29,021 nt of DNA from a virus. A program made the translations under genes and the position numbers. Positions 1 through 29,021 of this stretch are shown here, piece by piece. The first letter of the stretch is position 1. Each line of letters opens with the position of its first letter. The DNA lies in IMG/VR virus record IMGVR_UViG_3300025305_002424, positions 1 to 29,021 of that record; one strand, 5' to 3'. The notes under the pieces are model-generated. The model was not told where the DNA came from and made no database searches. It saw nothing but the letters and a program-made list of their open reading frames with translations.

Positions 1-370
1 GCTTACGGGTTCTGTCTTCTACCCCTTTCGCGGCATCGATAACCATAAGGCACGAGTCAACGGCCGTTAGCGTACGATAAGTGTCTTCTGAAAAGTCTTC
101 GTGCCCCGGGGTATCTAGCAGGTTCACCAAATGGTCGCTGTAGGGAAACTGCATAACCGAGGTGGTTACCGAGATACCACGCTCTTTTTCCATTTCCATC
201 CAGTCTGACTTTGCATGCTGGCCTGACTTTTTACCTTTCACGGTACCGGCGGTCTGCAGCGCGCGTCCAAACAACAATACTTTTTCAGTAATGGTGGTTT
301 TACCCGCATCCGGGTGCGATATGATTGCGAACGTACGTCGCTTATTGATTTCATTAATAAATTTATTCAT
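1..370 (-). CDS. prfC: Peptide chain release factor 3 (RF3), 5' part only
   Basis: RF3 is the translational GTPase that removes RF1/RF2 from the ribosome after termination. The first 123 residues are visible; the rest lies beyond the left edge. The G1 P-loop (HPDAGKTT, residues 19-26), the switch I region (RGISVTT, 64-70) and the G3 motif (DTPGHEDF, 86-93) are intact, and the sequence stays close to enterobacterial RF3 from [15 protein letters not shown] onward. Translation starts at an ATG with only a weak purine stretch before it. This is the only clear host gene in the window. The phage operon runs in the same direction and ends about 125 bp upstream of this start. The 5' end of prfC is also the known integration target of SXT/R391 elements, whose core site lies in the codons around the IISHPD motif. 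Here that stretch is uninterrupted. Confidence 0.97.
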
Positions 371-465
371 TAGTGCTTTTTAAAATTCATTCGGGGGCCG
401 CTGCGGGGGCCATAAAGTATTTCTTAGGGTTGCTTGGCCTTACTTCGTTATGCGCGGATGATACC
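371..465. other. Phage-host junction region upstream of prfC
   Basis: This short gene-free stretch separates the terminator of the last phage gene from the prfC start, so the prophage end should lie here or just inside. It contains a GGGGGCC direct repeat about 12 bp apart (near 394-412), which can also pair with itself because GGCC is self-complementary. I could not recognise an attachment core, a target-site duplication or Mu-type terminal repeats. The prfC promoter is expected here but no convincing -35/-10 pair was found. Confidence 0.4.
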
Positions 466-496
466 AAAAAAAAGGAGGCGTTACTGCCTCCTTTTT
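466..496 (-). terminator. Rho-independent terminator closing the phage tail operon
   Basis: An 11-bp perfect stem (AAAAAGGAGGC / GCCTCCTTTTT) surrounds a six-base loop and is followed on the minus strand by an eight-base T run. It overlaps the stop codon of the last phage gene. The stem's own A and T tracts make it potentially bidirectional, which would also isolate prfC from the phage late operon. Confidence 0.85.
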
Positions 497-759
497 CAAG
501 CTACTATTTTGCTCTTAATTGGGTCTTTTTCACTTCCCCATTTAAGCACCTTTATACCCTCGCTTTCTGCCCATAGCTTTATCGCTGTTTTTATTCGGCT
601 ATTAAGTTGCCCATGACCGATGTAAATAACAGCGTCTGCAGTTCCTTCTGTTTGAGCAAAAAATTTAAATTGCCTACCGTCCAGTTTTATCCGAACGATC
701 CGACATGGGATAAACACCTCAACATCTGCACCGTTGTAATTCTCTGTACGGTAGGTCAT
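496..759 (-). CDS. Small hypothetical phage protein, last gene of the late operon
   Basis: This encodes an 87-aa soluble protein with no signal peptide or membrane segment and no family I recognise. It begins ten bases after the stop of the SGNH tail protein, with a good ribosome binding site (AAGGGGATAGGA) directly before the ATG. Its TGA stop lies inside the terminator hairpin. The position after the receptor-binding genes would fit a tail-fibre accessory or chaperone, or an end-of-genome moron. That is inference from place only. Confidence 0.75.
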   Translation of the reverse strand: MTYRTENYNGADVEVFIPCRIVRIKLDGRQFKFFAQTEGTADAVIYIGHGQLNSRIKTAIKLWAESEGIKVLKWGSEKDPIKSKIVA

Positions 760-769
760 TCCTATCCCC

Positions 770-3283
770 TTAAAGCGTCTTTATCGTTGACTGATAATAT
801 TTAACGCTAGCGTTTCCACTTTGCGTAGGTGCGATCATCACCACGCCTTTTTCATCACCATCCACATAGACTGTAAATGTTAAATCGAAAGATTTAGTAG
901 AACTGTCTAACTGTAAATCTCCAAGCCTGCAGTGCGCTTTGCTTCCTTCTAAATTAATGGAGGCAGTTTTGCTGCTTAATGTGAGTATTCCCGTCCTTGT
1001 CTCAACTGATATTTCTATACGATCAATATCATTTTGCTCTAGGTTCAAATATCCATCGTCATCAAGCACTAGATTCTCAGTGCGACTCGGTTTAAATCTA
1101 AATGTCTCTCTATTTGATCTTCCGGGGTACGCGGTTACAACTCCATCGTTGTCTAACGTGAAATGAAGTTTGTCTAATATGTTTAACACGTTGCTTTGCT
1201 CCACTCCTGCCACGTTTATTGTTGTACTGCTTATTTCGCTTGTTGCGCCTTCGTTATCAACTACCACTAGATCAAAAGTTAACGCTTGAGGGTCTAGTTT
1301 GCTAGGTGCGATAAATTTAGGTTTTTCAATAGTGTCACTATCTAAATCTACGCTATCTCCAGAAGCTTGAACCCATCCATAGCCTGATATACTGCCGTTG
1401 GGGTCTGGATCATAAGAAGCGCTTCCGTCTAACTGTACGAGTGAACCCGCCGCTACTGACTGATTAGCGCCAGCGTTGGCTATTGGGGGTTGGTTTGGTA
1501 TTTCTTCAGGCGCTGTAAATGCAGCAAAACGAATTAGAGCTGCCTCATTTACCTGCGTCCCTGTTTTTAAGTGCGTGCCATCACTATCGGTTTCTACGTC
1601 AACAACTTCGGTATCACCACCAAAACGGCAGTAAGGGTTATTCTCAATGATGTAATCAAATTCAGCGCGAAGTGTATCACTTGCCCCATTCTCATACGTT
1701 CTTGGAATATCCGTCAGATAATGAATACTTCCAAATTCCGTATGTAAAGCGTTAATCATTTCATCTAGCCAAGCACGTAGAGTAGCGCTATCTGTACCTA
1801 CGTTGGACTCGCCACCTAAAGAAGCGGTATAAGTAACACCGCCACAATCGGCTTCGGTTGTCTCCGCAATAATTCGGCTATTCCACAAATCATTGCTAGA
1901 CGGAACCCAGCGTTCAATACTAGTGCCACCCACAGCAACGTTAATAACACCGATTGGTTGGCCTAGCTTTGCATACTCAACGGCTATTCGAATCCATGTT
2001 GAACCACCGCTACTATCTTCACTAGTGGGGTCATTAATGTACTGCCACACCCCATCTTTGAAGCATGTTGGTCTAACCATACCCGAGGTTATTTCGTTAT
2101 TACGTATACTGTTCTGGGTACTTGCCCCTCTACCTGACTCGTTTGATTGCCACCATGCAAGCCATATCGGTGCAGCGGTTAAGTAGTTTGCGGATGCAAC
2201 AACGTCCGTATTTGTACTAACTCGCACTTTAAGGTTTTGTTGAACACGAATAATTATATCGTCTGAGAAATTTCCGTTGCTATCTGTTGGCATGGCGAAC
2301 CAATTACCAGAACCATCAAGTTCATATTCTGCTACTGCTCCAGCAGGTAGGTCAGTAATAACACCAGATACAGGAAAAATAGCCTCGCCATTTATGTCTG
2401 CTTTTCTTGTGTAATAGCTATACGTTTTACTGTCGAGTGTGATTGTGGGGGCTGCTGCAACTACGCCATCTTCTAACACAAAAAAACTAACATCGTCGGT
2501 GTCTGTTGTGCCGTCACTGCCCGTGGTAGTTAACCTGAAAGTGATTTCAGTTAATTCGGTAAAACTAGGGGCTGTAAATGTCGGACTAACCGCTGTGTCA
2601 TCGCTAAGTATTACGCCTGTGCTTGTAACCTCAGACCATGAGCGGCTAACCACGCCTGTTGATGCTGATGAATCTAGTGTTACTGTATCGCCAGCGTTGA
2701 TGTTGCTTTGGTTTGAACCCGCATTCGCTACGCTTGGTGTAGGCGTTGATGCAGCATCGTAACCGCCACTGGTAAACCCTATGAGAGTGCCGTGTTCGTA
2801 ATCCCCTGTAGTGTTAGTTAGTACAGTATCGCCTTGAACTCCGCCATCAAAATCGTGAGTAATGACTCCTCCGGGACTGCTATCACCTACTATTGTGGCA
2901 ATGCCCGACATCTTTCCTTGTAGGTGGCCTCCGTTTGAACCTCTGCGACCCCACTCCCTAATATCTAAAGGCCCAGTGGACGTACCCGTAACAGTGTTGC
3001 CGCCAAACGTGAACGTTATTTCCGAACCTACGCGGGTAATCCTACCATCTGTGATCACTGCTGGAAGAGAGATAGCCGGTGCATCTACTGTTGAACCCCC
3101 ATTACTCAAGCGTAGACGAGTTTCATTTGACCTAATTTGGATAAATGAACTGCCGCTACCGGAACTAAAAACATAACTGAAGTTGTTATCTATTTCTATT
3201 GTCGGAAGGGTTACATCAAAATCACCACTTAGATAAGCCGTGAAACCTTGTATATGACCGTTCCCATCAAATACTATTGCCAT
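770..3283 (-). CDS. Phage tail protein with SGNH-hydrolase (esterase) domain between PKD-like domains
   Basis: An 837-aa protein and the most distal large tail gene. The centre (about residues 370-590) shows the SGNH/GDSL hydrolase blocks in order: WQSNESG with candidate nucleophile Ser380, VGGTSI (451-456) for block II, GGESN with Asn494 for block III, and DGTH with Asp568 and His571 for the catalytic Asp-His pair. This spacing resembles the sialate O-acetylesterase-like carbohydrate esterases. PKD/REJ-like beta-sandwich domains sit on either side (about 184-270 and 600-692), each opening with an NAG-NQS motif. An N-terminal module of about 180 residues probably joins it to the tail, and a C-terminal beta-rich module of about 140 residues ends the protein. 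There is no signal peptide, as expected for a virion protein. The likely role is removal of acetyl groups from a surface polysaccharide during adsorption. The substrate is unknown. Confidence 0.82.
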   Translation of the reverse strand: MAIVFDGNGHIQGFTAYLSGDFDVTLPTIEIDNNFSYVFSSGSGSSFIQIRSNETRLRLSNGGSTVDAPAISLPAVITDGRITRVGSEITFTFGGNTVTGTSTGPLDIREWGRRGSNGGHLQGKMSGIATIVGDSSPGGVITHDFDGGVQGDTVLTNTTGDYEHGTLIGFTSGGYDAASTPTPSVANAGSNQSNINAGDTVTLDSSASTGVVSRSWSEVTSTGVILSDDTAVSPTFTAPSFTELTEITFRLTTTGSDGTTDTDDVSFFVLEDGVVAAAPTITLDSKTYSYYTRKADINGEAIFPVSGVITDLPAGAVAEYELDGSGNWFAMPTDSNGNFSDDIIIRVQQNLKVRVSTNTDVVASANYLTAAPIWLAWWQSNESGRGASTQNSIRNNEITSGMVRPTCFKDGVWQYINDPTSEDSSGGSTWIRIAVEYAKLGQPIGVINVAVGGTSIERWVPSSNDLWNSRIIAETTEADCGGVTYTASLGGESNVGTDSATLRAWLDEMINALHTEFGSIHYLTDIPRTYENGASDTLRAEFDYIIENNPYCRFGGDTEVVDVETDSDGTHLKTGTQVNEAALIRFAAFTAPEEIPNQPPIANAGANQSVAAGSLVQLDGSASYDPDPNGSISGYGWVQASGDSVDLDSDTIEKPKFIAPSKLDPQALTFDLVVVDNEGATSEISSTTINVAGVEQSNVLNILDKLHFTLDNDGVVTAYPGRSNRETFRFKPSRTENLVLDDDGYLNLEQNDIDRIEISVETRTGILTLSSKTASINLEGSKAHCRLGDLQLDSSTKSFDLTFTVYVDGDEKGVVMIAPTQSGNASVKYYQSTIKTL

Positions 3284-3294
3284 TCATATTCTCT

Positions 3295-6219
3295 CTATAC
3301 TGTAATTGAAATTGTGTTAGACCAGGCGCCGATTAGCGCACCATTAAGGCAACGGCATCTGATCTGGTATGCGCCTGAAGAAAGTGAAATTGAACGTTTG
3401 AAGCAACCAACAACACCGGGCAACCCAACGTGAGGAACGTTTAACGTAGACCATGAACCACCGTTGCTTGATACTTCAAATTCCATATCGGTCATTACTG
3501 CGCGGTTTAAATTATCCAGTGTGGGGTAGGTTTTAAGCACCTCAATAGAACTTCGGTTTCCACCAAGCAGGCCTCGCCCTTCAAAGTAATAACTACTGTC
3601 TTTTTTCTGGTCGTTCATTTGAGGAACGGTAACGCAGCGAACGCCATCTACGGTGCAATTCCAAATCTCGAAATATGCTGCACTATCACTTACTGAAAAT
3701 ACTTCGCGTGTACCGTAACCTTGAACGTATTCGTTGTTAGCCAGCGTTACGCATCCATGTTTGTGAGTACGTGTGATTTTACAAGCCCCTTCCAAACGGC
3801 TGTAAGTCATTTCAGTGCGCTTCTTCAAATCCGTTACTGAGTCTGAGCCGTTTTTACCGTCTAGGTTATAAATGTGAGCGCTGTATAAAAAACTGTCTTC
3901 ATCCCAGTTAGAGCTATTAATAACGATGATGTCCGAATTACCAAACTGAGAAGTGTAATCACCGTAGTTTGAGTCCAGCCCGAGGTCTGCGGTTATGTTG
4001 CAAAGCTGCTGGTTTTCAACGAATGGTCCGTATAAGTCACCTACTACCGCTACTTGCCAAGTGTCGTACTGGCCTGTATACCCGCCAGTAAAATCCATAC
4101 CGTCAATTTCTAGGGAAACAGCGCCACGAAGATTTACACCGTTCCTACGGTTTTGAACCCATACGTTTTCAAACAAATAGCTGCGGTTAGCATTGGATGA
4201 GCGGTATCCATCTTGTTCGTTCTGCGCTAACTCTTGGTTTTGTATATGAACATCAGCCGTGAAATCATCACGTAGTCTACGAACAGGGTTAATACGCCAA
4301 CTTAAATCTACGTCTGATCCGTTTACTGAACCTTCAAGTGTTGGTACTGCTGGCGTTTCAGTTCTCAGTAGTTTGCGTACATAGATATTTTGGACGTTAC
4401 CTTTGTAACCGCTGGCTGTGATTTGTACTTGTGTAGCGTTAGCTGGCGCTCGAATAAGCCATACTTCTGTACCTTCAATACTGTGGCTATACTGGCCGAA
4501 CTCACTGCCAATTTTAGGTGTAACCGAACCACTTATTTTATCTACCAGCTTAAGTGATATTTGGTAGACCTCGTTTTCTTCAAAGTTGTAGTTCGCGGTT
4601 AACGGGTTGCTTGTTCCGTTTGAGTAGTATTTTCTACTAAACGTGCCGTTTGCATATAAAACCCCACCATTTTCTGACCAACCCGAACCGCTGAAACTAT
4701 CCGGCTGCACGACCTTCGCCCCCACTTCAGGGGATGCGTGAATAGTGAACTGGTGCATGTAGATAAGCGTTTCAGTTGAATACCTAAAGTAATCAATTGC
4801 TGTTTCGCCGGGGTCTAAGTGAAGCCATGCTTCTGCAGGCATATAACGAACTGAGCCGTTAACCGTTGGTAATACCCTTGCGCCACTTGGTAAGGTAATA
4901 ACGCTTTGAAATGGTCTTTCTGCACCTTGCACCGCAATGGCATCGTTAAGTTGCGGTATGTGCATATAAGGCAAGTAAAGCGTTTTGTTCGCGTATACTG
5001 GCAGCGAGTCCATTGTTACTGTGGCTTTTTCACCACGCCATGATTCGCCTTCAAGCAATTCAATTGTTTCGTTGTAAAGGATGCCATTTACCGTGACGTT
5101 GTTTAAAACTACGGTGCAAGCGCCTTGCGCTGATAGGAATGGTAGCGGTAGGTGTGCTCTGTAGTCACCGCCGTTGATAGTAACTGTAGCGTTAGGACCA
5201 ATAACAACTACGCCCAAGCCTCCCACTTCATCGAGGTTACAACCGCAGTTATTTAATTCACCGTCTTTGTGGAAGTAGTAAGCAAAGCTGTCACCAGATA
5301 ACTGGCGAGTCCAACTCACCATGCAATCACGAGCGGTAGATATTTCTGCAAATTCAATACCGGCTCCATCACGAGTAGAGTGCAGCCCCTTTACATCAAC
5401 TTCGCAACCGAACTTAAATCCGTTGCCGCTAAAACCTATGGTGTGTACTTCACGCACAATAGCCTTAGCGCCCTGCTCTATTTCTAATCCGTATAGCAGC
5501 GTTTCGTTTTCACTAAACTCATGGTTGTCATTAGTGATTGTGCCGCCTATAACTTCCATATCAGTGTGACCAGCACGAATTACCATACCAATGTCACCCG
5601 TACCAGATATATCGAAATCCTGAGTTGATACATTGCTCGAACCGATAGGAATATCTAGCACTTTAAAAATGGTGTTGATAAACGTAAGTTTACGTAAAAT
5701 CCAATCAAACATTGCGTAGCCTTGTGTGTCTATGAGGCCAGCGTTACTTAATAGTGCGCCGTGAACTTCCCCACCTCTGTTATCGGATGCCAGTTTTATA
5801 AACGGGTCTGAGTCTTTAGCTTTAATGCCGAAGAAGCGGTGGTAATTAACGCTAAGGATTATTAAGTCACCACTCACTTTTTGAATCCACGGACTGTGGT
5901 TTTCGAGGTTTGTATCAATGCCGCGTTCCCCGACTTGCAGGCCAAAATAGAAAGACAGTGGGTTACCATCACGGCCTTTATCAACATTAAAGTTCCACGG
6001 CAGGGTTCTGGGGGTCCAGTCTCTTACTTTGTCAGGATGCGAACCAATAAAGAAGTTATCACCGGGGTCTACACGATATTCGGGATCTTCGTCTGAACTA
6101 CCACTAAACTCTCGGTTGTAAATATTTTCTAGCTGCTGTGCGGGGTTGCACTCGGCCCACTCTTGTCCGTCAGTCCAATGAGGGGCTGCAGATAAATTGA
6201 CATCAAATAATCTATCCAT
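3295..6219 (-). CDS. Large tail fibre/tailspike-like protein with parallel beta-helix character
   Basis: A 974-aa protein. After about 110 N-terminal residues, residues roughly 205-370 read as short beta strands with regularly spaced Gly, Asn, Val and Ile turns, typical of right-handed beta-helix tailspikes. A second such region occupies about 670-900. Between them (about 480-640) is a beta-rich stretch resembling a carbohydrate-binding module. The last ~70 residues look like a separate beta-sandwich. I identified no catalytic pair, so it may only bind polysaccharide or may cleave it. Its start overlaps the upstream gene by eight bases and it lies just before the SGNH protein, so the three distal proteins are probably made together and assembled at the tail tip. 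The family call rests on composition and context. Confidence 0.68.
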   Translation of the reverse strand: MDRLFDVNLSAAPHWTDGQEWAECNPAQQLENIYNREFSGSSDEDPEYRVDPGDNFFIGSHPDKVRDWTPRTLPWNFNVDKGRDGNPLSFYFGLQVGERGIDTNLENHSPWIQKVSGDLIILSVNYHRFFGIKAKDSDPFIKLASDNRGGEVHGALLSNAGLIDTQGYAMFDWILRKLTFINTIFKVLDIPIGSSNVSTQDFDISGTGDIGMVIRAGHTDMEVIGGTITNDNHEFSENETLLYGLEIEQGAKAIVREVHTIGFSGNGFKFGCEVDVKGLHSTRDGAGIEFAEISTARDCMVSWTRQLSGDSFAYYFHKDGELNNCGCNLDEVGGLGVVVIGPNATVTINGGDYRAHLPLPFLSAQGACTVVLNNVTVNGILYNETIELLEGESWRGEKATVTMDSLPVYANKTLYLPYMHIPQLNDAIAVQGAERPFQSVITLPSGARVLPTVNGSVRYMPAEAWLHLDPGETAIDYFRYSTETLIYMHQFTIHASPEVGAKVVQPDSFSGSGWSENGGVLYANGTFSRKYYSNGTSNPLTANYNFEENEVYQISLKLVDKISGSVTPKIGSEFGQYSHSIEGTEVWLIRAPANATQVQITASGYKGNVQNIYVRKLLRTETPAVPTLEGSVNGSDVDLSWRINPVRRLRDDFTADVHIQNQELAQNEQDGYRSSNANRSYLFENVWVQNRRNGVNLRGAVSLEIDGMDFTGGYTGQYDTWQVAVVGDLYGPFVENQQLCNITADLGLDSNYGDYTSQFGNSDIIVINSSNWDEDSFLYSAHIYNLDGKNGSDSVTDLKKRTEMTYSRLEGACKITRTHKHGCVTLANNEYVQGYGTREVFSVSDSAAYFEIWNCTVDGVRCVTVPQMNDQKKDSSYYFEGRGLLGGNRSSIEVLKTYPTLDNLNRAVMTDMEFEVSSNGGSWSTLNVPHVGLPGVVGCFKRSISLSSGAYQIRCRCLNGALIGAWSNTISITV

Positions 6220-7645
6220 AGTGGGGGATTCTCATTTTAATAGACTCGACGGTTAAAGCGCCTGTTACCGTTGTTCCTGCACGTTTGAAAAAGATGCGCT
6301 CGTTAGTTATGTATCTGCCCGAACCGGAATAGTAGATTTTGTTTGGGCTACTGTTTGAAATGGTCAACGCGAGTGTGTGGCTTAAGTATTCAGTCACAAT
6401 GACTAATTCAAATTCAAAATCGTCAAAGCTATCGCTAAAGAAACGTAACCCATCGTTACCGTCTTCGGCGTCGGTTACCGTGAATACTCTAGGGTTCTGT
6501 GAGTCTTGCGCCCAACTAGGGCCAATACTGTGTAGGCTTTCGGGGAACATATCTTCGCTGTACCAATAACCATCGGCCTTTTGATAAAACGTTCTAAAGG
6601 GTGAGCGCAAAGTGCCAAAGGCGGTATCAAATTTAGCGTTAAGCGAACCTACATTCGATTGATTCACGTCAAACTGGTGCCAACCGGTATCTAGTTCGAT
6701 GTACTCAATAATTCCTTCGAAGTACTCGCTGTTGAACTCACCAATTTTATAAAGGTTCGTTACGCTGGTTTCGTACTCATGCCATTGGTGATTAGCCAGC
6801 GTGGGGTTGTTGGGCAAACCTAAACCGCCCGTTCCCATCGGGTAGACACGCATCTTGATGTTACCAGTGTACGAGCTGTTGTTGTTAAAACGCAGTATCA
6901 AACCACGGTAGAAAATAGGGAACGCACGACTCGCTATGGTTGTTGGGATAGTGAACCATCTATCAGTCAGTGCTACGTGTACTTCACCACGCACATCATC
7001 AAACTGAATCAACCGTTTATTGTTTGGTGATTCAGCGGGGCGTACTTCGGTGCTTTTTAAAGTAGGGTAATCAGTCAGTATTTGACTAATACTTTGTTCG
7101 CGCTTTATGGGTGGATTTAACGCCTGCGTTCTTTTGTTATCCGTGTCGATATCATCCGGTAGCTGGTCAACGGAAACCTTACCCCCAATTTCAGGGAAGG
7201 TAGGAAAGCGCGTCGCCGTTTCTGGCAATACTTCAGCTATATCACCTTGCACTTGCGTCCACGTCGGCCACTGCGTAGCAGTTGGTGGTGGGTCGATAAT
7301 TACAGACCAGCGTAATTCACTAACACTACCAGGACCGTCACCGTATGCTTCAGCTAGTCCGTTTTGTGCTTGTGTTAGTGAAGTGATAGCGGACAATAAA
7401 GCATCGTTCTGACCAAGCGGTATTAGGGTTGCGCTTTTCTCTACTATGTCATTGCCCGTATAAGCAATGGCCAGCGTTAAAGTACGATTAACGGTGTTTC
7501 CGCTTGTAACCACTCGCGGCCTATCACCTGCAATAAAAATCACGCTACCCGGCACTACTGAGAAGTTTGAGTCACTGGTGTTTATTTGAATTACGTTATT
7601 GTTGTTATTAACACTAACGCTTGGGAACTCTCTCACTGCGGTCAT
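6212..7645 (-). CDS. Tail tip / fibre-base structural protein (unrecognised family)
   Basis: A 477-aa protein, Asn/Thr-rich and beta-rich, without membrane segments. The N-terminal ~70 residues form a compact beta-rich module, followed by a linker with many Pro and Thr (about 105-200) and a C-terminal half of alternating aromatic strands. It starts with an ATGA overlap on the J-type tip gene and runs eight bases into the tailspike gene, so it is translationally coupled to both. The likely role is an adaptor between the J-type tip and the distal spike, or the first receptor-binding protein. No enzyme motif was seen. Confidence 0.6.
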   Translation of the reverse strand: MTAVREFPSVSVNNNNNVIQINTSDSNFSVVPGSVIFIAGDRPRVVTSGNTVNRTLTLAIAYTGNDIVEKSATLIPLGQNDALLSAITSLTQAQNGLAEAYGDGPGSVSELRWSVIIDPPPTATQWPTWTQVQGDIAEVLPETATRFPTFPEIGGKVSVDQLPDDIDTDNKRTQALNPPIKREQSISQILTDYPTLKSTEVRPAESPNNKRLIQFDDVRGEVHVALTDRWFTIPTTIASRAFPIFYRGLILRFNNNSSYTGNIKMRVYPMGTGGLGLPNNPTLANHQWHEYETSVTNLYKIGEFNSEYFEGIIEYIELDTGWHQFDVNQSNVGSLNAKFDTAFGTLRSPFRTFYQKADGYWYSEDMFPESLHSIGPSWAQDSQNPRVFTVTDAEDGNDGLRFFSDSFDDFEFELVIVTEYLSHTLALTISNSSPNKIYYSGSGRYITNERIFFKRAGTTVTGALTVESIKMRIPHYG

Positions 7646-10600
7646 GACGGACGCCCCTCTACGCTTATTAAACTCAATCGTTGAGAATCAATGAATTGTT
7701 GCAGTAGAGCACGCTGTTGACCTTCAACTCTTAGTCTGTATGCGAATGTTGCTAGTGAGGTGCTGGTGTCAGTGTAAGTAAATGAACCACCAGAAATTTC
7801 CAGCATGGTGCAAGTTGTAACGCCGTGTTCAAAATCATCGAACTCGTTGTAAGTAACTGTTCCGTTGAAAACTTGACGCTGCAGTTCTGCCCATCCACCT
7901 CCACCTGTACTGCGCTCTAGTATGACCGTCGCTTCAGGCACAAAGTCTTGATTTGTTGGACACGCCTCATCCCACGTGTAGGTACCTCGCCAACCGAAGC
8001 TACAACTAACCGTTTTAGGGTTACCGTTAGTTGTGAATGGGCCTACTTCCACTGAAGGGTTAAGAGTTAGAAGTGTTGAGTCGCCACCGTTTATCAATTC
8101 GCCCGTTGTTAACGAACCGCCTAGATATTCATTAGCAAAGCTGTCTTTCCACCCATACTTTCCATTTGATTTGCGAAGTTGAGCATAGTCGGGCTGTCCG
8201 TTTCCATCTAAGATCGGATCTCCTTCCCAAATAACTAAGTTGTCTGGTCCGAAACCACCATAGTCTTGAACTCGCATAAAATGCTCTAGAATTGTAACTT
8301 CTCTAGCTGCTCTTAATGTGCCTGTGAACTCTGTGTTAGCCCCAATTTCAAGCCGACCACTGATGGTGTTTAACCAGAAAAACACTTCACCTGCAGTGCT
8401 GGCAAATCGGAGGTTATCCATGTAAAGCAGAATGTCGCTGTCGCCATTGCCGCCCTGTATACTTAGCCCGGTGAAATTTTCGTTTTCATCTACAACGCCA
8501 AGGTAATAAGTGCCGCCCAATTCACCTAGTTGTGTCTCAAGTGCTTGCATGAAGTTGATGACTGATAATTCGTCACCATCTTTGTTGACGACCTTTACTT
8601 CGTCGAATGCACGAACTAGGGGCGCACCAACTACCCAGTCTCCGTTTTCATCTTCATAACCAATATTCACCTGCTTGAACTCAGTAAATTGTGCTGCGAC
8701 TGTTTTGGTACCTACTTTTTGTTTGAGGCCGATTATCTCTGTGCTGTTTATCTGGTTAGCGCTTACCGCTTCGGTAACGTTGTATATAAGCTGCTGGTAG
8801 TCGTCGCCTTGTTCGCTGGTTTGCGTGCTCCAATACTCCACATCATTAGTGATAGCATCGATATGGTCACCTAGCGCCGCTGGTAAACCGGGCCATTGAA
8901 TGCGAGATATAATTTCGGGGTCCACTCTGTCGAAGGTGGTACCTATTAAATTGGCAACGCTGAAGCTGCGCCAGTTGGGGTCTTTTTGGTCGCCGTCTAC
9001 AATTCGGTACCATACGTAAACGACACCGTCGTGAGGTGTGTTCGTTATAGTTATTGCGTCGCTTTTGCCAAGATAGAAAGCGTTGTCGAAGTGTTCTTGT
9101 TCGCCACCTTCGTATGAGTACTTCCACTCGTATGTCGCTGAGTTATGCGGCAGTTCTGGGCCAGTAATGATCACTCTGCCGGGTAAAATGTTCACCACAA
9201 CGCCCTGAGTCGGTGTAGACGGCACGCCTATGTCTATTGCTATGGCAGTCGCTATACTCGTTTTAAACCTGTTTCTGGCTGATACAGCAACTAAGAACCT
9301 GCCTATGGGGAGGTGCGCTAGACTTTGTTCCTGTGAAGCTGGTGTAAATGTCAGTTGTGTTGAAGGCGTATTGTCGTCGTAGTTGCTAACTGAAACGATG
9401 TAATTGATCACATTGCGAGGTGTTGCATGATCCCACTTCAAGACGCCTTGTCGCCAACTGTCATTAGGCGTTGTCTCAAATCGTAGGTTGCTCGGCTGCA
9501 CAATGCTCAAAGCATCAGGCAGTGTAGTGTTCGGTGTTAGGTCACCCTCTGCTGGCTTAAAGTTATCAGGGTAAATCTGCGGACCATCTTCAATTATCTG
9601 CAGTTTGGTTTCGAGTTTTTCTGTATCGTATCTAACGTCTTCGACTAGAAACTCTTTGTTTATGCCTGTTTCTAAGTCAATAAATCGAATGTTGGTACCA
9701 GGAGTTGCATCGAGTCGGATTCCCTTTAGTGGATAACTAATGGCGAAGCCAGCACGCGCTCTTTCCATTGCTAGTTTTGCAATTCTTTGGGCTTGATGAT
9801 CTTTGGTCACCATAGCCAAGCGCAGGTTACTCTCAAGGTATGCGCCATCGTTTTCCCTGTACTCATCGCTGGTTATAATGGGCGCATTGGTCATCTGCCA
9901 CTTTAATTCTGGGTTTACGTACTCGGCCCTCACAACGTTTATTTTCTCTTTGTATGGGCGATGAGGGCGATATTCTGGGAACGATTCAAGTTCAGAAACT
10001 TCTATTACTGTGGTTGCTGGACCTGCATACATGGCTGGCTTAAAGTAAACCTTGCCGCCTACGCGATATATCTTTGCTCCCATGCAGGCTAGAATTTCTG
10101 ACAGTGCTTGCCCTTGACGGATGCCATTGTTTAAAACGCCATTAACCGAAAACCGGGTTCCAGTTTTGTCATTTCCTTCTTGGTCTTGGTAAGTGACAAT
10201 CTCGTCGCAGTAGTTCGCTACCGTTGCAATGAAGTCGATAGGGATGCGTCTAACTGGCACAGGCTTAGCGCCATACGTTCTTAGGTAGTGGTAAGCGCAT
10301 AACTCTGGGTTATCTGACCATTCCCAGCTTGCTTCGTCATCGTATCGATGATCACCAACTCCACCGACTGTGTCGTCTTTTCTGGGGTCGTAGACCTTGT
10401 GGCCTTTGACTATGAACTTTATCTCGTTAACGCCACCGGGGAATAGTTCATCATCAACGGGGATTTTGAGTGTAACGTATGTTTGGTTTTTACCTATATG
10501 TTCGGACGTCCAGCCGTCTACATATCTATTTGCTAAATAGTCGACTTCTGTTTGGTCGCCTAGATGCTTGTTGACTGTGACTCTTCCTGCTAATTCAGAT

Positions 10601-10992
10601 GCTGTTTTTCCTTCAATTTCATAAAGGTCTACGCTGTCGCATGGGTGCCCTACTAGGTGCAATACCATTATGTGATAATCTTCGTCACCTATCGTAGGTT
10701 TGGCATATCCGACAATTTTGCCGCCGACTAGCGCTTTCCCGTAAATGATCTTTCTAACGTCATTCGGGTTGGTGTTTAGTGATTGGTCCTGCTGGGGGTC
10801 GGATGTATAGTCGGCCATATCAGGCGTTAACATCTCGCCTAAATATTTAACGCCTTCCATAGCCAATGCGCCACCCACACCGATTGCGATAGCACTTAGA
10901 CCTGCTGATAGGCCAACACCGAGAATCGTTACGGTGGCCCCTATTGAGGCTGCTCCTAGTCCTACTGCGACGCCGACAACTACTGGAGGCAT
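7642..10992 (-). CDS. Tail tip attachment protein, lambda J-like (host specificity)
   Basis: A 1116-aa protein corresponding to the J/TipJ central tip protein that forms the distal end of siphoviral tails. Residues 1-48 are a Gly/Ala/Val-rich hydrophobic stretch. Residues about 60-250 are the beta-rich hub-type N-terminus, about 280-450 the phage-tail_3-like region, about 490-600 a fibronectin III-like domain, and about 680-880 a DUF1983-like segment often seen in J proteins. The C-terminal ~230 residues vary and probably carry the fibre junction. I place the start at 10992 because GGGAGG lies at good spacing before this ATG. The ATG 15 bases upstream has its only purine run directly against it. 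The gene overlaps the NlpC/P60-like gene by 13 bases, matching the lambda K-I-J order. Confidence 0.85.
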   Translation of the reverse strand: MPPVVVGVAVGLGAASIGATVTILGVGLSAGLSAIAIGVGGALAMEGVKYLGEMLTPDMADYTSDPQQDQSLNTNPNDVRKIIYGKALVGGKIVGYAKPTIGDEDYHIMVLHLVGHPCDSVDLYEIEGKTASELAGRVTVNKHLGDQTEVDYLANRYVDGWTSEHIGKNQTYVTLKIPVDDELFPGGVNEIKFIVKGHKVYDPRKDDTVGGVGDHRYDDEASWEWSDNPELCAYHYLRTYGAKPVPVRRIPIDFIATVANYCDEIVTYQDQEGNDKTGTRFSVNGVLNNGIRQGQALSEILACMGAKIYRVGGKVYFKPAMYAGPATTVIEVSELESFPEYRPHRPYKEKINVVRAEYVNPELKWQMTNAPIITSDEYRENDGAYLESNLRLAMVTKDHQAQRIAKLAMERARAGFAISYPLKGIRLDATPGTNIRFIDLETGINKEFLVEDVRYDTEKLETKLQIIEDGPQIYPDNFKPAEGDLTPNTTLPDALSIVQPSNLRFETTPNDSWRQGVLKWDHATPRNVINYIVSVSNYDDNTPSTQLTFTPASQEQSLAHLPIGRFLVAVSARNRFKTSIATAIAIDIGVPSTPTQGVVVNILPGRVIITGPELPHNSATYEWKYSYEGGEQEHFDNAFYLGKSDAITITNTPHDGVVYVWYRIVDGDQKDPNWRSFSVANLIGTTFDRVDPEIISRIQWPGLPAALGDHIDAITNDVEYWSTQTSEQGDDYQQLIYNVTEAVSANQINSTEIIGLKQKVGTKTVAAQFTEFKQVNIGYEDENGDWVVGAPLVRAFDEVKVVNKDGDELSVINFMQALETQLGELGGTYYLGVVDENENFTGLSIQGGNGDSDILLYMDNLRFASTAGEVFFWLNTISGRLEIGANTEFTGTLRAAREVTILEHFMRVQDYGGFGPDNLVIWEGDPILDGNGQPDYAQLRKSNGKYGWKDSFANEYLGGSLTTGELINGGDSTLLTLNPSVEVGPFTTNGNPKTVSCSFGWRGTYTWDEACPTNQDFVPEATVILERSTGGGGWAELQRQVFNGTVTYNEFDDFEHGVTTCTMLEISGGSFTYTDTSTSLATFAYRLRVEGQQRALLQQFIDSQRLSLISVEGRPS

Positions 10993-11396
10993 GGAACCTC
11001 CCAGCATCCTTTAAGCTCTCGCATAGGTAGCTTTGCTAGTCCTTGCTTTGTTGACACCCAAACCGCACCACCCCAAATGATCCCGAGTGCCTCACCGTCT
11101 TCTGTTTCAACAAGGGCTATATCACCTCTTTTGGCTAGTAGTGGTGCCTTTAAAGGACCAAATTTACTTTCTAGTGTCTTTTTTATATCGCCTTTGCCGA
11201 TTTTCTTCAGCGCTTTAACTGATCCAAATTCAGTAGAATATTTGCCTCTAAATTCTTCGGCAAAATCAACACCCGTTTCGGCTTCAACAGCGCCAGCTGC
11301 AAACAGGCAGCAGTCAAACGTTCCCCACTCGAAAGGTGTAGATATGTTCTGTGCAATGTAGTCATTGAGAAGTTCTGGCCAGTTTTCTTTTCTCAT
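10980..11396 (-). CDS. DUF6950 / NlpC-P60-like tail assembly protein
   Basis: A 138-aa protein matching the DUF6950 pattern: FEWGTFDCCLF near residue 23 with a Cys-Cys pair (C28, C29), a FRGKYST motif, then KRGDIALVETEDG and a final hydrophobic strand. It holds the place of lambda gpK, a tail-tip peptidase-like protein upstream of J. The Cys and surrounding Trp-Gly-x-x-Asp motif fit an NlpC/P60 active-site Cys. I do not see the usual catalytic His; the equivalent strand reads GIIWGGAVWV. It may therefore be a structural derivative rather than an active peptidase. The gene overlaps its upstream neighbour by four bases (ATGA). Confidence 0.8.
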   Translation of the reverse strand: MRKENWPELLNDYIAQNISTPFEWGTFDCCLFAAGAVEAETGVDFAEEFRGKYSTEFGSVKALKKIGKGDIKKTLESKFGPLKAPLLAKRGDIALVETEDGEALGIIWGGAVWVSTKQGLAKLPMRELKGCWEVPCLQ

Positions 11397-18188: not shown

Positions 18189-19121
18189 TTAAAGAACGCC
18201 TGTGAATAGGTAGCCAGCTTCTTTGGCGATCTGTACTTCATTAACAGAATCACCGACTGTCACTTTCACGCCACCACGAAGGCCAAGTTCACCCGGCTCT
18301 AGCTGCTTCTGATATGCAACTTTGCCAAGGTATGAAGCTGTCGCCATAAACGTCATGTCTTCTTCAAGGCTCAAAATGTTTGAGTTGCGATAGTGGAAAG
18401 CAGCAGTGCCACCCCATAAGCGAGAAAGGTTCGCTGATTGGCCTTTGTTAGCCATGTTGTATCGAGACTGGCCCACGATAAGTTCGTTAATCTCGAGTAA
18501 GTCGACAAACTCTTGGCGAGTGATCTTACCTTCTTGGGTGTCAACGTTACGGCCCATGGCTTTCAGTAGCGACTTGTTGCGGCTAATGTGAAACCATTCG
18601 GTGTGACCTAAAACGCATACGTTCGGACGCATCAGCGGCTGCTCTAGTGCTAGCCCAAAGATCTCGAAGAAATCAGCATCATAGTCACTGAACTTGTTAC
18701 CAGCGGTTAGTGCTTGCTTGTGATTGTAGTTGTTGCCATCTCGCACGAAATCAGCCACACGCTTTTCTCGCGCTAGATCAACTAGCTTAGTAACACCAAG
18801 CGTTGCACGACCAAGAGGATCGAATGATGGGTGATTTGCTGCTTTGTCGATGTCAGACTGTGGTACCGCGTCAGACAATCCGTAATCCATGGTATGTCCA
18901 GAGCGTTCTTTCGCTGTGAATTCCACTTCGTTCGGCACGCCTTTTCGACCTACCTTGGTGTCTGGGATTGTCATCATTTCTTCGCTGTTATACTCAGTCC
19001 AGCGGAAGTCTTCAGACATTACGTCTACGCGAGGTGCAACGCGGTCAGCGATCAACTCAGCGTTCTTAAAGCCCACCGCGATTGCGGTTAGCTTGGTATC
19101 TTGTACGAATGGTGTAGTCAT
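18189..19121 (-). CDS. Major capsid protein
   Basis: A 310-aa protein, expected to have the HK97 fold and build the icosahedral head. It follows the decoration protein and protease/scaffold genes, as gpT does in Mu-like phages. The ribosome binding site is strong (AGGAGA, six bases before the ATG), as expected for the most abundant virion protein. Recognisable segments include an N-terminal NAELIADRVAPRVDV stretch, common in this family of major capsid proteins, and a C-terminal beta-rich part (GGVKVTVGDSVNEVQI). No N-terminal delta domain longer than about 30 residues is seen, in line with a separate scaffold. Confidence 0.9.
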   Translation of the reverse strand: MTTPFVQDTKLTAIAVGFKNAELIADRVAPRVDVMSEDFRWTEYNSEEMMTIPDTKVGRKGVPNEVEFTAKERSGHTMDYGLSDAVPQSDIDKAANHPSFDPLGRATLGVTKLVDLAREKRVADFVRDGNNYNHKQALTAGNKFSDYDADFFEIFGLALEQPLMRPNVCVLGHTEWFHISRNKSLLKAMGRNVDTQEGKITRQEFVDLLEINELIVGQSRYNMANKGQSANLSRLWGGTAAFHYRNSNILSLEEDMTFMATASYLGKVAYQKQLEPGELGLRGGVKVTVGDSVNEVQIAKEAGYLFTGVL

Positions 19122-19136
19122 TGCTGTCTCCTAGTG

Positions 19137-19496
19137 CTACACAGTAAGTTTGATGCTGATGATGTCACCAGCAGCGTTTGCGGCTTCCGTTGCCCAGCCT
19201 ACGACTTCGTCTGTCGAGGATGCTGCAACGACGCGGCCTTGGGTATCGACTGTCACGTCTGCACCCTTGTTGACCGTGGCCCCTGCTCGAACTTCTGCGA
19301 TACCTTCTAGGATCACGTCTGCTCGTTTACCTGCTGGTACCTCTGCTGGGTCTGCCAACACACCGACTAATCGGTCTGTTTTGGCTGTTGCCACTGCTAC
19401 TGCATCGTCTGCGGCGTCTAACTTGACTACGCTGTAACGAGGGATAGCTGTGGCGGCGATAAAGGCTTTAGTTAGCCCTGTATTTCTCATAGTCAT
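19137..19496 (-). CDS. Capsid decoration/cement protein (DUF2190-like)
   Basis: A 119-aa, Ala/Val-rich, all-beta protein resembling DUF2190-type capsid decoration proteins. It has a repeating pattern of short strands and turns (VGVLADPAEVPAGKRADVIL, then a GIAEVRAGATVNKGADV strand pair). Such proteins bind the outside of the mature capsid and strengthen it. It sits between the protease/scaffold gene and the major capsid gene. A GGAG lies ten bases before the chosen ATG; a second in-frame ATG two codons later is possible but less well placed. Confidence 0.8.
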   Translation of the reverse strand: MTMRNTGLTKAFIAATAIPRYSVVKLDAADDAVAVATAKTDRLVGVLADPAEVPAGKRADVILEGIAEVRAGATVNKGADVTVDTQGRVVAASSTDEVVGWATEAANAAGDIISIKLTV

Positions 19497-19503
19497 GACT
19501 GAT

Positions 19504-20001
19504 CTACTCCGCTTCTTTGATAACGTGGTTAACAGCGCTCACGAGGTCGACGTGATTGCCTGCGACCTTTTGTTCTTCCTGATACGCTACCGCTTTGCGC
19601 GACAACTCAGCCGAAGTTAAAGGGCCATTGTTTTTGCTTTCGTCCTTGGTGTGCTCACCAAAATCGACAGCTTTCTTTGATTGGAGGTACTTGATCAGTG
19701 AGGCGCGTCCTGCCACCTCTACTTTCTCGTCGCCCTCACCGAACTGAACAGTGCCGTCCGTTTTATCTAGCAATTCACAGAAAGAGGTGATACTTGCTCG
19801 ATCTGCAGGTGTGATGTGACCAGCTTTGATCAACGCATCAACGTCGTCGCTAATCTCTTGGCTTCGCTTTTGTTCGGCAGCGACTTTCTCTGCCTCTTCA
19901 AATGACGCGACCTTCTCTTTCAAGGTGCCGTTTTCAACATTTGCGGAATCAAGGCTTTCTTCTAGTTCCTTAATGCGCGTTTTGGCTTGCTCTAAGTCCA
20001 T
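19504..20001 (-). CDS. Internal in-frame scaffold protein (Mu gpZ-like)
   Basis: An in-frame ATG at codon 212 of the protease gene is preceded by GAGG at eight bases' distance. Translation from it gives a 165-aa protein starting MDLEQAKTRIKELEES, a coiled-coil scaffold without the protease domain. Mu (I/Z) and lambda (C/Nu3) use the same nested arrangement. The start is supported by sequence and analogy; expression is inferred. Confidence 0.7.
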   Translation of the reverse strand: MDLEQAKTRIKELEESLDSANVENGTLKEKVASFEEAEKVAAEQKRSQEISDDVDALIKAGHITPADRASITSFCELLDKTDGTVQFGEGDEKVEVAGRASLIKYLQSKKAVDFGEHTKDESKNNGPLTSAELSRKAVAYQEEQKVAGNHVDLVSAVNHVIKEAE

Positions 20002-20634
20002 CTCGTTTTCCTCGTTGAACTGGTTTGTTTGAATGGGTTGTGGTGGGTTTATCATCCGCTCTGACGAGCGCTCCAAGTCGACAATAAGCGGATCGGGTAT
20101 CAGTTCGTCGGCTTCTTTGATGCTGGTGCTCTGAATGATGAACTTTTTGATGTTCTTCATAAGCGTTGCAATCGTGCCGAAAGAAATGCCACTTTCAAAT
20201 GAGTCCTCAAAGTTGACTACGCCTTGCTCGTCAGATGAAAACTCAACCGGGCATAGTCCTTTTATCGCTGGCGCTTTCCCACCTAAAAAACCTACGTGTC
20301 TTAGGTACCAGTTACCCGGTGATGGGTTACTTGGTGAATCAGGCATGTAGAAGCTGGCACTGATTTTCTTATAAGTGCCTTTGGAGACGAGCTCTTCGAA
20401 CTCTGGGTTAACCTGTTGAGGGACGGCGTGTAAGCCTTGTTCGTCTGCTCTGAGGCTTACTACCCATCCCATAGCTGGGTCGTCGGTTGCAGGGTGCCCG
20501 ATTACGATTGGGGCTTCGTGAAGTGATGGGTCGTAAGAATCGACAACGTTGCTCAGCATGTCGTCGCCAAACTCTAATTTAAGACCACCTGAGTCGGTGT
20601 GGGTACCGCGTTTGAATATGTGAAGGTTTTTCAT
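19504..20634 (-). CDS. Mu gpI-like head maturation protease with C-terminal scaffold
   Basis: A 376-aa protein. Residues 1-150 match the Mu I peptidase family (PF10123): APIVIGHP with His47, the KKISASFYMP strand with Ser92 or Ser94 as candidate nucleophile, and LRHVGFLGGKAPAIKGL (111-127). Residues about 212-270 are a Glu/Lys-rich coiled coil, and the C-terminal ~100 residues are helical, as expected for a scaffold. In Mu, gpI cleaves the scaffold during head maturation, and the scaffold gpZ is made separately from an internal start in the same gene. A matching internal ATG with ribosome binding site is present here at residue 212. The start codon used lies at the edge of a perfect 10-bp inverted repeat, which is unusual. 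No Shine-Dalgarno at good distance is visible. Confidence 0.88.
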   Translation of the reverse strand: MKNLHIFKRGTHTDSGGLKLEFGDDMLSNVVDSYDPSLHEAPIVIGHPATDDPAMGWVVSLRADEQGLHAVPQQVNPEFEELVSKGTYKKISASFYMPDSPSNPSPGNWYLRHVGFLGGKAPAIKGLCPVEFSSDEQGVVNFEDSFESGISFGTIATLMKNIKKFIIQSTSIKEADELIPDPLIVDLERSSERMINPPQPIQTNQFNEENEMDLEQAKTRIKELEESLDSANVENGTLKEKVASFEEAEKVAAEQKRSQEISDDVDALIKAGHITPADRASITSFCELLDKTDGTVQFGEGDEKVEVAGRASLIKYLQSKKAVDFGEHTKDESKNNGPLTSAELSRKAVAYQEEQKVAGNHVDLVSAVNHVIKEAE

Positions 20635-21078: not shown

Positions 21079-21363
21079 ATGGACAGAGGTAACCGGGCGC
21101 TTGCTGAGTTATTAAAAAGGCGGCGTGAATCATTCGGACTCTTGCAGGAGGAAGTCGCAGAGTCCGTTGGTATGTCATTGAGGTCTTACCAATATTTGGA
21201 GGCAGGAACCACTAAAATTACAGCTGACAAGGAAATTAAGTTAATGCGCGTAATGCGTAATTTGTATGTTCAGAAAACAGGGCTAATGCTTGATGAAGAA
21301 AAAGACAATGAGTCTATCGCTTCTCAATTGAAAGACTTGTTTTTGGGATTACTCAAGGGGTAA
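21079..21363 (+). CDS. XRE-family helix-turn-helix regulator
   Basis: A 94-aa DNA-binding protein. Residues about 8-55 form a Cro/CI-type helix-turn-helix: LLKRRRESFGLLQEEVAESV, then GMSLRSYQYLEAGTTKIT, with a recognition helix around SLRSYQYLE. The C-terminal ~35 residues are helical and may dimerise. It has an AGAGG ribosome binding site and starts a two-gene plus-strand operon opposite to the phage late genes, with the membrane protein gene four bases downstream. It is too short for a full CI repressor with a peptidase domain. It could be a Cro-like or moron regulator controlling its own promoter and the membrane protein. Confidence 0.85.
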   Translation: MDRGNRALAELLKRRRESFGLLQEEVAESVGMSLRSYQYLEAGTTKITADKEIKLMRVMRNLYVQKTGLMLDEEKDNESIASQLKDLFLGLLKG

Positions 21364-21367
21364 CTAA

Positions 21368-22108
21368 ATGATTCTTTCAAAAACATCAGTAAGGATGCTG
21401 GGTTTTATTTTACTCACTGTGACTTTGTTCATGATGGGTCCATCGTTGGTGGATTTTACATCGAGCTCAATAATAGAATTCTTGGCGTTTTACGTTCACA
21501 TTTGGGTGATCTTTTTCGCTGGAATTTTCATGAGGGGAAAAGCAAACCGAAGAGCAATACTGGTTTTGGTATTGAGTATTATTGCTAACCATTATCTGTT
21601 TTACGCATACCTTGAATGGGTTGAAGGTTATACCTATGCAAAGCTATGGTGTATGTTCGTTGCAGGACTTCCCATGTATCTAGCGTTCACGTATTACACC
21701 TATTTTCAGTCTCGATGCTTAACGTTCTTTGAACGTGTAGGTTTGAGCAATCAAGTTGCTGATCGCATTGTGGGGCCAATCGGTACCACGAACTTCTGGA
21801 TAATGTGTAGCTGTTATGCAACGTTCTGGGCGTTTGGTGATTTCTTTATCGCCGTTTACTCTAGCGTATATGGATTGGTTTACAGCGTTCCAGCTGTTGA
21901 CGGTAGAGTAACCGCTGAATTCTTACGTAATGGTCACGTGAACGTGTATGTTGTGTATGACATCGTGATTGTAGTGGTTGACTCTGTCTTTGCTGTACTT
22001 GTTGCGCATCGAGTGCTACGCGATCAAAAACGGCCAGATGCTCTAGGCATTGGCCGCTCAATGACTTGGGATAAAAGCCGGGTTAAGACTCTAAATCGGG
22101 CTTTTTAG
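21368..22108 (+). CDS. Multi-pass inner-membrane protein of unknown function
   Basis: A 246-aa protein with about six hydrophobic segments, near residues 9-29, 36-55, 62-81, 92-112, 143-172 and 191-214. A cytoplasmic-type basic tail ends the protein. The longest loop (about 113-140) is polar. No recognised family. It is co-transcribed with the XRE regulator and read against the surrounding phage genes, the pattern of a moron expressed from the prophage. Superinfection exclusion or host membrane modification are reasonable guesses but have no direct support. Its last 26 bases overlap the end of the convergent small exported protein gene. Confidence 0.75.
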   Translation: MILSKTSVRMLGFILLTVTLFMMGPSLVDFTSSSIIEFLAFYVHIWVIFFAGIFMRGKANRRAILVLVLSIIANHYLFYAYLEWVEGYTYAKLWCMFVAGLPMYLAFTYYTYFQSRCLTFFERVGLSNQVADRIVGPIGTTNFWIMCSCYATFWAFGDFFIAVYSSVYGLVYSVPAVDGRVTAEFLRNGHVNVYVVYDIVIVVVDSVFAVLVAHRVLRDQKRPDALGIGRSMTWDKSRVKTLNRAF

Positions 22109-28029: not shown

Positions 28030-29021
28030 TTACTTCTACCCTTAAATAACCCAGCCATACGCGCTGCAAACGAGGCACGCTGAATCTTGTTCACGTTCTC
28101 TGTGCTGGTTTCTTCCAAAAGACTAAATAAGTTCTCTTTGAGTGCTTCAAGGTCGCCGCTTTCCTCTGCTAGCGCGAGAATACCTTCTAGTTTTGGCGTA
28201 AGCATTTGGTTGTACGCGGTTGCTAACATTGCCGAGGCGCCATTAATGGCATGCTGGTCCTGTCGGTGTATGTTTGACTGCTGCGCTCTTAGACCTGACT
28301 CTGAAAACTCGGGGTTGTTTTCTTCGCCGGGCATTGGTGGTGGCTGGTTGGCGTTTTCGTCTACTATCCATCCGTCGCCATATGTATCTCTGATGTATTG
28401 TTCAGTCGGATTAAGTCCGAGGCTCTTTATTTTGGCGTCACGCAGTGCAATATCTTTAAGGTCCTGTTCTGGCTCAGTTCGTCGCCACACCTCTGGGTAA
28501 AATTCGGTTTCTGCAAAGTTTAAGTCAATGAGTTGCTTCACCACTTGCGTGTTGAACGTTTCACACAACAAGTCTGCATCAGCTTTGATCACATCGTCTT
28601 TGACGCCTGCATGCACTTCGGCTTGGCTTCGGCTGCTGCCGTTATCGGTGGTCATGGTTTGGCTAAGTACGATTTTGCTGATCGCAGCGTCCATCTTTTC
28701 GTATAGCTTTTCGTATGAAGCACTTCCTGACCTGCTGGCCTCGAGTAGTTCGACGTCAATATCGGAAGGCTTGACCACGCCACTATCAGCATGAATGGCG
28801 TCGATAACGTCTAGGGCTATGCTGCGCTGTTCGGCGTCGGTAAATTGAGATCGGCTAAGGTTCGCCACTGCAGTTGGCATGCCGTATTTCTCTAGATAAA
28901 TCATCCAGAATTTAATGCCATTTCGCTTAAAGAAGACAGGCCAGTAAAGTGAATGCGCCAAGCCTTCGCCATACGGGTTATCGCTGTGGTTCGCGCCTGT
29001 TGAAACTACCCAGAATTTATT
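28026..29021 (-). CDS. Portal protein, DUF935 / Mu gp29-like (N-terminus beyond the edge)
   Basis: The last 331 residues of the portal protein, which forms the dodecameric ring through which DNA enters and leaves the head. The frame is open to the right edge; a TTG at 28961 is not a real start because the reading continues upstream with typical family sequence (NPYGEGLAHSLYWPVFFKRN). Further DUF935 features are KFWMIYLEKYGMPTAVA and ISKIVLSQTMTTDNG. The middle has a Pro/Asn-rich segment, and the C-terminal part is helical and charged. The ATGA overlap with the F-type gene keeps the Mu gp29-gp30 order. Confidence 0.92.
   Translation of the reverse strand, partial: NKFWVVSTGANHSDNPYGEGLAHSLYWPVFFKRNGIKFWMIYLEKYGMPTAVANLSRSQFTDAEQRSIALDVIDAIHADSGVVKPSDIDVELLEASRSGSASYEKLYEKMDAAISKIVLSQTMTTDNGSSRSQAEVHAGVKDDVIKADADLLCETFNTQVVKQLIDLNFAETEFYPEVWRRTEPEQDLKDIALRDAKIKSLGLNPTEQYIRDTYGDGWIVDENANQPPPMPGEENNPEFSESGLRAQQSNIHRQDQHAINGASAMLATAYNQMLTPKLEGILALAEESGDLEALKENLFSLLEETSTENVNKIQRASFAARMAGLFKGRSK

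Follow-up and report, generated by a model that had tools for sequence, protein, structure and literature searches.

Viral record IMGVR_UViG_3300025305_002424, analysed here over its whole length of 29,021 bases (the window), carries a run of tail genes, the last large one of which encodes an 837-residue protein with a region related to carbohydrate esterases of the SASA (SGNH) type. An earlier note on this DNA had placed an SGNH esterase domain at 1500-2180; in frame, this stretch becomes 1502-2182 (-), i.e. residues 368-594 of the 837-residue open reading frame, and an SGNH-type esterase domain in the last tail protein is supported by a Pfam match (PF03629), by profile matches to solved esterases and by invariant catalytic residues. 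The gene and its parts, from the N- to the C-terminus, are the following:

770..3283 (-), predicted distal tail protein of 837 residues with an esterase domain (open reading frame; last large gene of the tail run)
2759..3283 (-), N-terminal domain, residues 1-175 (50-71% identity in five close members)
2474..2758 (-), PKD-like domain 1, residues 176-270 (phmmer stretch; PF22352 matches the protein in two stretches)
2180..2473 (-), Ig/FnIII-like domain, residues 271-368 (AlphaFold2 and VIA-align)
1508..2179 (-), SASA (SGNH-type) esterase domain, residues 369-592, with approximate ends (PF03629; profile matches 1zmb and 2apj)
2144..2146 (-), codon of Ser380, the predicted nucleophile, in block I (WWQSN)
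1925..1930 (-), codons of Gly452-Gly453, block II (VAVGGTS)
1802..1813 (-), block III, GESN, residues 491-494 (within GGESN; Gly491 and Glu492 invariant)
1571..1582 (-), last block, DGTH, Asp568 to His571
1208..1507 (-), PKD domain 2, residues 593-692 (PF22352)
770..1207 (-), variable C-terminal domain, residues 693-837 (31-51% identity in five close members)

Family, catalytic residues and predicted fold of the esterase domain

Residues 373-518 matched the Pfam family SASA (PF03629; carbohydrate esterase, sialic acid-specific acetylesterase) with a score of 35.4 bits (E 1.1e-8), to be compared with the curated cut-off of 24.8 bits. The match is far beyond chance and, judged from the sequence, the domain is real; by the Pfam cut-off the protein is a member of SASA. 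Scans of viral contigs yielded seven related records, namely five close ones (L003-L007, 77-95% identity in the domain) and two distant ones, L008 (31%) and Alteromonas phage PT11-V22 (V22; 30%). PF03629 was found in all eight member records and over the cut-off in seven of them, with V22 exceeding it only when neighbouring stretches are counted (25.3 bits); the same search gave matches in four of 14 control genomes. A six-member profile retrieved the solved esterases 1zmb (related to acetylxylan esterase; E 7.1e-5) and 2apj (a putative esterase; E 1.3e-4) from the PDB and, with less certainty, 9ega (E 0.021), which is a sialate O-acetylesterase; one more match (E 1.2) was dropped as chance.

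The catalytic residues of the SASA family are the Ser of a QS(N) motif and those of an Asp-x-x-His motif near the C-terminus, and the four block residues of the SGNH/GDSL superfamily are Ser, Gly, Asn and His. In the alignment of the eight members (the window, the five close and the two distant relatives) Ser380, Gly452, Gly453, Asp568 and His571 are invariant, their numbering in the earlier note being correct, and Ser380 aligns with the QSN of 1zmb and 2apj. That all four SGNH blocks are visible, as had been stated, holds for Ser380, Gly452/453 and His571, but not throughout for block III, the Asn of which is an Asp in the two distant members. Thus, as far as the alignment can tell, three of the four SGNH residues (Ser, Gly and His) appear firm, the Asn of block III being the least secure. 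In block I, the window and the five close relatives share the sequence WWQSN, whereas a Gly precedes QS in 1zmb, in 2apj and in the two distant members; the presence of WWQSN instead of xGQSN (codons of Trp378 to Ser380 at 2144-2152) is conserved and unusual.

The degree of conservation varies along the protein. Identity to the five close relatives is 77-95% for the SASA domain, 79-94% for the first PKD, 50-71% for the N-terminal domain and 55-96% for the Ig domain, and falls to 40-48% for the second PKD and to 31-51% for the C-terminal domain. The ratio of non-synonymous to synonymous substitution rates (dN/dS) of the SASA domain is 0.02-0.08 in four of five comparisons, dS being saturated in L007, and that of the first PKD is about as low (0.04-0.13); these values are rough because dS is high (1.1-3.1). 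The SASA domain and the first PKD rank with the most strongly constrained regions of the protein, which argues against a decayed enzyme without singling out the SASA domain alone.

One of the distant relatives is V22 gp154 (NC_048847; L002 5437-7977), a SASA-like protein annotated as hypothetical. It is 34.0% identical to the 837-residue protein over three pieces spanning residues 176-691 and 28.2% identical over the domain, and it retains all five residues (Ser380, Gly452/453, Asp568 and His571). It differs in having another N-terminal domain and a Gly in block I, in belonging to a myovirus, and in the location of its gene at the end of a linear record. When a phage collection was searched by tblastn with the SASA domain, only V22, the record of which is present twice, matched well (28.2%, E 2e-10). 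The matches H7 (E 0.07) and H8 (E 0.7) were dropped as chance-level, and a reading of the H8 region proved nothing. Two scans of genome contigs gave 31 and 73 pattern matches and no confirmed relative, a weak negative as only a few short peptide patterns were scanned.

Proteins of the SGNH/GDSL superfamily adopt an alpha/beta/alpha flavodoxin-like fold in which the triad residues meet. The Ig plus SASA region was modelled with AlphaFold2 from eight sequences, and the esterase part of the model (model residues 146-322 or 100-322, i.e. residues 418-594 or 372-594) was compared with known structures by VIA-align. It superposed on the CE2 carbohydrate esterases 2wao (Z 8.5; 136 residues, 3.2 Å) and 2waa (Z 7.9; 138 residues, 3.5 Å) and on the peptidoglycan O-acetylesterase Ape1 (8gkd; Z 7.6; 138 residues, 3.5 Å), all three of which we take to be SGNH folds; differences in Z below 1 count as ties, and these Z values are near the tool's own middling level. 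The superpositions lend weak support: they are in line with what the sequence indicates, yet fall short of proving the fold. Foldseek (E up to 0.001) gave 33 matches, 32 of them with a root-mean-square deviation (rmsd) of 13.0-18.8 Å and one with 8.1 Å. They were mostly chitinases, glucuronidases and feruloyl esterases, with the acetyl xylan esterase 6ne9 at 18.4 Å, and were discarded as spurious superpositions given the large rmsd.

The domains surrounding the esterase complete a modular protein, with the order N-domain, PKD, Ig-like, SASA, PKD and C-domain. The K319L-like PKD family PF22352 matched in two stretches, the best at residues 604-690 (whole-protein score, 69.9 bits), and with phmmer residues 182-269 were aligned to KIAA0319L, a similarity that is weak when taken alone (independent E-value, 0.64). 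The esterase had been described as flanked by PKD-like domains: such domains are found at about residues 182-269 (weak alone) and 591-690, but the one directly upstream of the esterase is Ig/FnIII-like. For the latter, residues 303-362 have block values of 78-93 in the predicted local distance difference test (pLDDT) of AlphaFold2, and VIA-align (model residues 1-100) superposed it on beta-sandwich structures, for example 1ug9 (Z 9.8) and the fibronectin(III)-like module 3pe9 (Z 8.1); no Pfam family covers residues 271-368. Pfam also gave no match in the N-terminal domain (residues 1-175), which is presumed to serve virion attachment, and nothing over its cut-off in the C-terminal domain (residues 693-837). 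The NCBIfam model myxo_dep_M36 was rejected, having scored 84 bits against a cut-off of 1500 with its best stretch, residues 581-702, on the second PKD. Similarity of phage R7M to the 837-residue protein is likewise confined to the second PKD.

Tail gene neighbourhood and phage type

The tail genes follow one another in the order tape measure, distal tail, tail protein, phrog_2134, J and the genes for the 477-, 974- and 837-residue proteins. The three that precede the esterase gene are:

7642..11007 (-), tail tip protein J (phrog_31, central tail fiber J, 6.2e-48; phrog_5616, tail fiber protein, 1.5e-77)
6212..7645 (-), 477-residue neighbour, probable fibre or adaptor (similarity to a 596-residue tail-related protein of phage V19)
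3295..6219 (-), 974-residue neighbour, predicted tail protein (similarity to a V19 'tail-related protein')

The genes for the 477- and 974-residue proteins overlap by eight bases, and a gap of 11 bases separates the end of the latter from the start of the esterase gene on the same strand. The same trio, in the same order, is present in the five viral contigs L003-L007, where its first gene is cut by the end of the locus. The assignment of the esterase to a tail gene is borne out by this recurrence and by its place as the last large gene after those for J and the two neighbours. In L008, the SASA gene is preceded by a fibre-like gene (36% identity over 64 residues to the start of V22 gp26) and by a DUF4376-like gene (20.9 bits, with a cut-off of 25), the product of which is 36% identical to V22 gp27. 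V22 gp27 is a chaperone required by the V22 tail fibre for host binding (PMC7289586). The position of the L008 gene after gp26- and gp27-like genes supports a place of the esterase gene among those for receptor recognition. Downstream of it the close relatives diverge, with an integrase-like gene in L005 (7385-8512) and a repressor-like gene in L007 (8074-8910), as judged by eye, so that one tail set may occur in more than one phage backbone.

The two preceding genes lead to a different phage type. A region of the Alteromonas schitovirus vB_AmeP_PT11-V19 (V19), annotated as 'tail-related protein', is 74.3% identical to the 974-residue protein over 100% of its length, and the V19 tail-related protein of 596 residues is 68% identical to the 477-residue neighbour over 411 columns; the host of V19 is A. 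mediterranea (Alteromonas mediterranea) PT11. The next slot in V19 is taken by a 1006-residue protein with Ig and PKD domains, which did not match SASA at E values of up to 0.1 and has only chance-level similarity to the 837-residue protein, its C-terminal half being 25% identical to the 974-residue protein. V19 is also absent from the tblastn matches of the SASA domain at E up to 1. Judged from six records of the window group and a single one of V19, the third slot looks exchangeable, alternating between the esterase and another gene. The sharing of the 477- and 974-residue tail genes between window positions 3295-7645 and V19 (L028 4895-12628) is an exchange across unrelated phage types. The description of the 974-residue protein as a beta-helix spike was not confirmed, as the Pfam family Beta_helix matched with E 4.2 in one of six members and the mean pLDDT of the AlphaFold2 model was 36.6. 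Its profile found a single PDB match, at chance level (E 2), and the secondary structure predicted for it contains many strands, a finding compatible with a beta-helix but no demonstration of one.

As for the phage itself, positions 2-370, at the edge of the record, hold the start of a translational GTPase gene with a GTP_EFTU domain, presumably that of release factor 3, prfC, and its presence there suggests a junction with the host. From this release factor-like gene and from a regulator gene, a temperate life may be deduced; the phage is probably long-tailed and temperate, and by analogy with V19 and V22 its host is apparently an Alteromonas-type marine bacterium. The region 21079-22108 contains two plus-strand genes within the minus-strand structural region, one for an HTH_3 regulator (94 residues; weak capH match in PADLOC) followed by one for a 246-residue protein, for which Pfam, PHROG, NCBIfam and PADLOC gave nothing within the limits set. 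Head genes are found at 18189-20634 and 26812-29021 (PHROGs major head protein, head maturation protease, minor head protein and DNA pilot, and portal protein), and they may form a Mu-like head. A scan of positions 1-8000 for promoters and terminators was uninformative, as fewer sites were found than in shuffled sequences (1 versus a mean of 12.2, and 5 versus 7.3).

Proposed function and alternatives

The 837-residue protein is, in our opinion, likely to be a distal tail protein with an active carbohydrate O-acetylesterase domain (SASA/SGNH) that trims a glycan of the host surface. The presence of an O-acetylesterase domain at the distal tail is well supported by the Pfam match, the profile matches to solved esterases, the invariant catalytic residues, purifying selection and the conserved gene order; from these we infer activity, location in the virion, an acetylated surface glycan as the substrate and a role in adsorption. 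With published precedents in mind, a virion deacetylase would be the natural reading of such a domain. The protein would serve receptor recognition at the distal tail. In catalysis, His571, oriented by Asp568, would be the base for the attack of Ser380 on the ester carbonyl, and the oxyanion would be held by the backbone around Gly452/453. The surface polysaccharide of the host would lose its O-acetyl groups to the domain but keep its own backbone intact, and deacetylation would let the virion bind and then move down to its receptor, with the Ig and PKD domains acting as spacers or as carbohydrate-binding arms.

Several observations weigh against this proposal. With plain hmmscan, V22 (20.2 bits) and L008 (19.9 bits) are both under the SASA cut-off of 24.8; the alignment of E. 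coli NanS to the profile has a probability of 0.09%, which is not meaningful; and PHROGs has no family for the 837-residue protein at E up to 0.1. The AlphaFold2 model has a mean pLDDT of 59; its Ig domain is good, but its catalytic domain is poor, with block means of 29-79, mostly below 65, the block of Ser380 having a value of 46 and the following one 32. The top Foldseek matches of the model are chitinases at about 15 Å rmsd. The Asn494 of block III is replaced by Asp in both distant members (GEAD or GETD), and Trp378 takes the place of the block I Gly in six of the eight. Finally, two more genes follow the V22 SASA gene before the linear record ends, and it lies apart from the baseplate and fibre genes and from gp26 and gp27.

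The substitutions in blocks I and III are what a degenerate esterase would display, i.e. a lectin-like receptor-binding domain that merely binds the acetylated sugar. This is unlikely in the face of the invariance of Ser380, Asp568 and His571 in all eight members and of the constraint on the SASA domain. The isolated position of the V22 gene and the lack of a PHROG family would instead fit a cargo (moron) enzyme acting outside the virion in the sugar metabolism of the lysogen or of the infected cell, as the NanS-p sialate O-acetylesterase, genes for which exist in coliphages (PMC10462455). To such an enzyme we would assign a low probability, as the gene directly adjoins the tail genes on their strand, with a gap of 11 bases, its product contains Ig and PKD domains, the order of the three genes recurs in five other contigs and the protein encoded in the corresponding V19 slot is in part a relative of the 974-residue one. 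The alignment of the model with Ape1 (8gkd, Z 7.6) would allow the virion esterase to act on O-acetylated peptidoglycan and aid the passage of the tail through the cell wall. However, the two CE2 carbohydrate esterases align equally well or slightly better (Z 8.5 and 7.9, ties by the rule given above), the profile matches 1zmb, 2apj and a sialate O-acetylesterase rather than Ape1, and the position after J would suggest a role at the outer surface, all of which makes this reading very improbable.

Known virion deacetylases and significance

If the domain is an active O-acetylesterase of the virion, it would join an established class and, on the present evidence, would work like its known members. 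In N4-like phages, G7C gp63.1 and Possum gp66 are likewise surface-recognition tail proteins with an SGNH domain (PMC9569702); gp66 deacetylates the O-polysaccharide of the host by a domain homologous to the G7C deacetylase. Possum gp66 carries an N-terminal attachment domain and forms trimers as a recombinant fragment; the window protein, for its part, is built with PKD and Ig modules. The PDB matches listed for the window protein include no G7C chain, the presence of G7C in that PDB library being unconfirmed. Aristophanes gp41 is described as a tailspike deacetylase, and the tailspikes of the Acinetobacter phages Phab24 (gp164) and others are homologues of sialate O-acetylesterases, with predicted deacetylation of the capsule (PMC11126041). 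They resemble the 837-residue protein by description and their hosts differ; their nearest structure, 7KMM, is also found by VIA-align here, but weakly (Z 7.9 but 10.5 Å rmsd). Klebsiella prophages, likewise temperate, have SGNH domains in tail fibres, where they are among the commonest enzymatic domains of receptor-binding proteins (PMC13123978). Two of them were shown to be esterases by hydrolysis of p-nitrophenyl acetate, and beta-helix depolymerases are part of the same data set; host and architecture are different, and the likeness lies in the SGNH description. For the precedents of all three reports, deacetylation or esterase activity was measured (PMC9569702, PMC13123978, PMC11126041).

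The Alteromonas phages A5, V22 and P24 similarly belong to unrelated families that share Alteromonas-directed tail genes, but their module consists of genes (central fibre, tail fibre and chaperone) different from the trio for the 477-residue, 974-residue and SASA proteins (PMC10579305). In the main text of that report, the words 'esterase' and 'hydrolase' are absent, and V19 is mentioned twice, as a schitovirus compared with A5. A literature search on tail esterases, SGNH domains and O-acetyl groups in Alteromonas phages and prophages found no paper on the present module, in a coverage that mostly leaves out subscription literature.

One may speculate, though we regard it as doubtful, that the 477- and 974-residue proteins form a host-recognition unit shared by unrelated Alteromonas-type phages and combined with an exchangeable third gene, the swap of which tracks host glycans with or without O-acetyl groups. 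If this were true, phages that share the unit could keep up with hosts of either kind by exchanging the third gene. Should the proposed function of the 837-residue protein prove wrong, what is left would be an ordinary tail enzyme. The interest of the system lies in the Alteromonas-type host, in the neighbours shared with V19 and in the conserved Trp of block I. If the proposal is right, deacetylation of glycans by phage tails would be extended to an Alteromonas-type marine host, and a natural comparison would be available between the 477- and 974-residue tail proteins when accompanied by an esterase, in the window group, and when no esterase is detectable beside them, in V19, which infects a named, cultivated strain.

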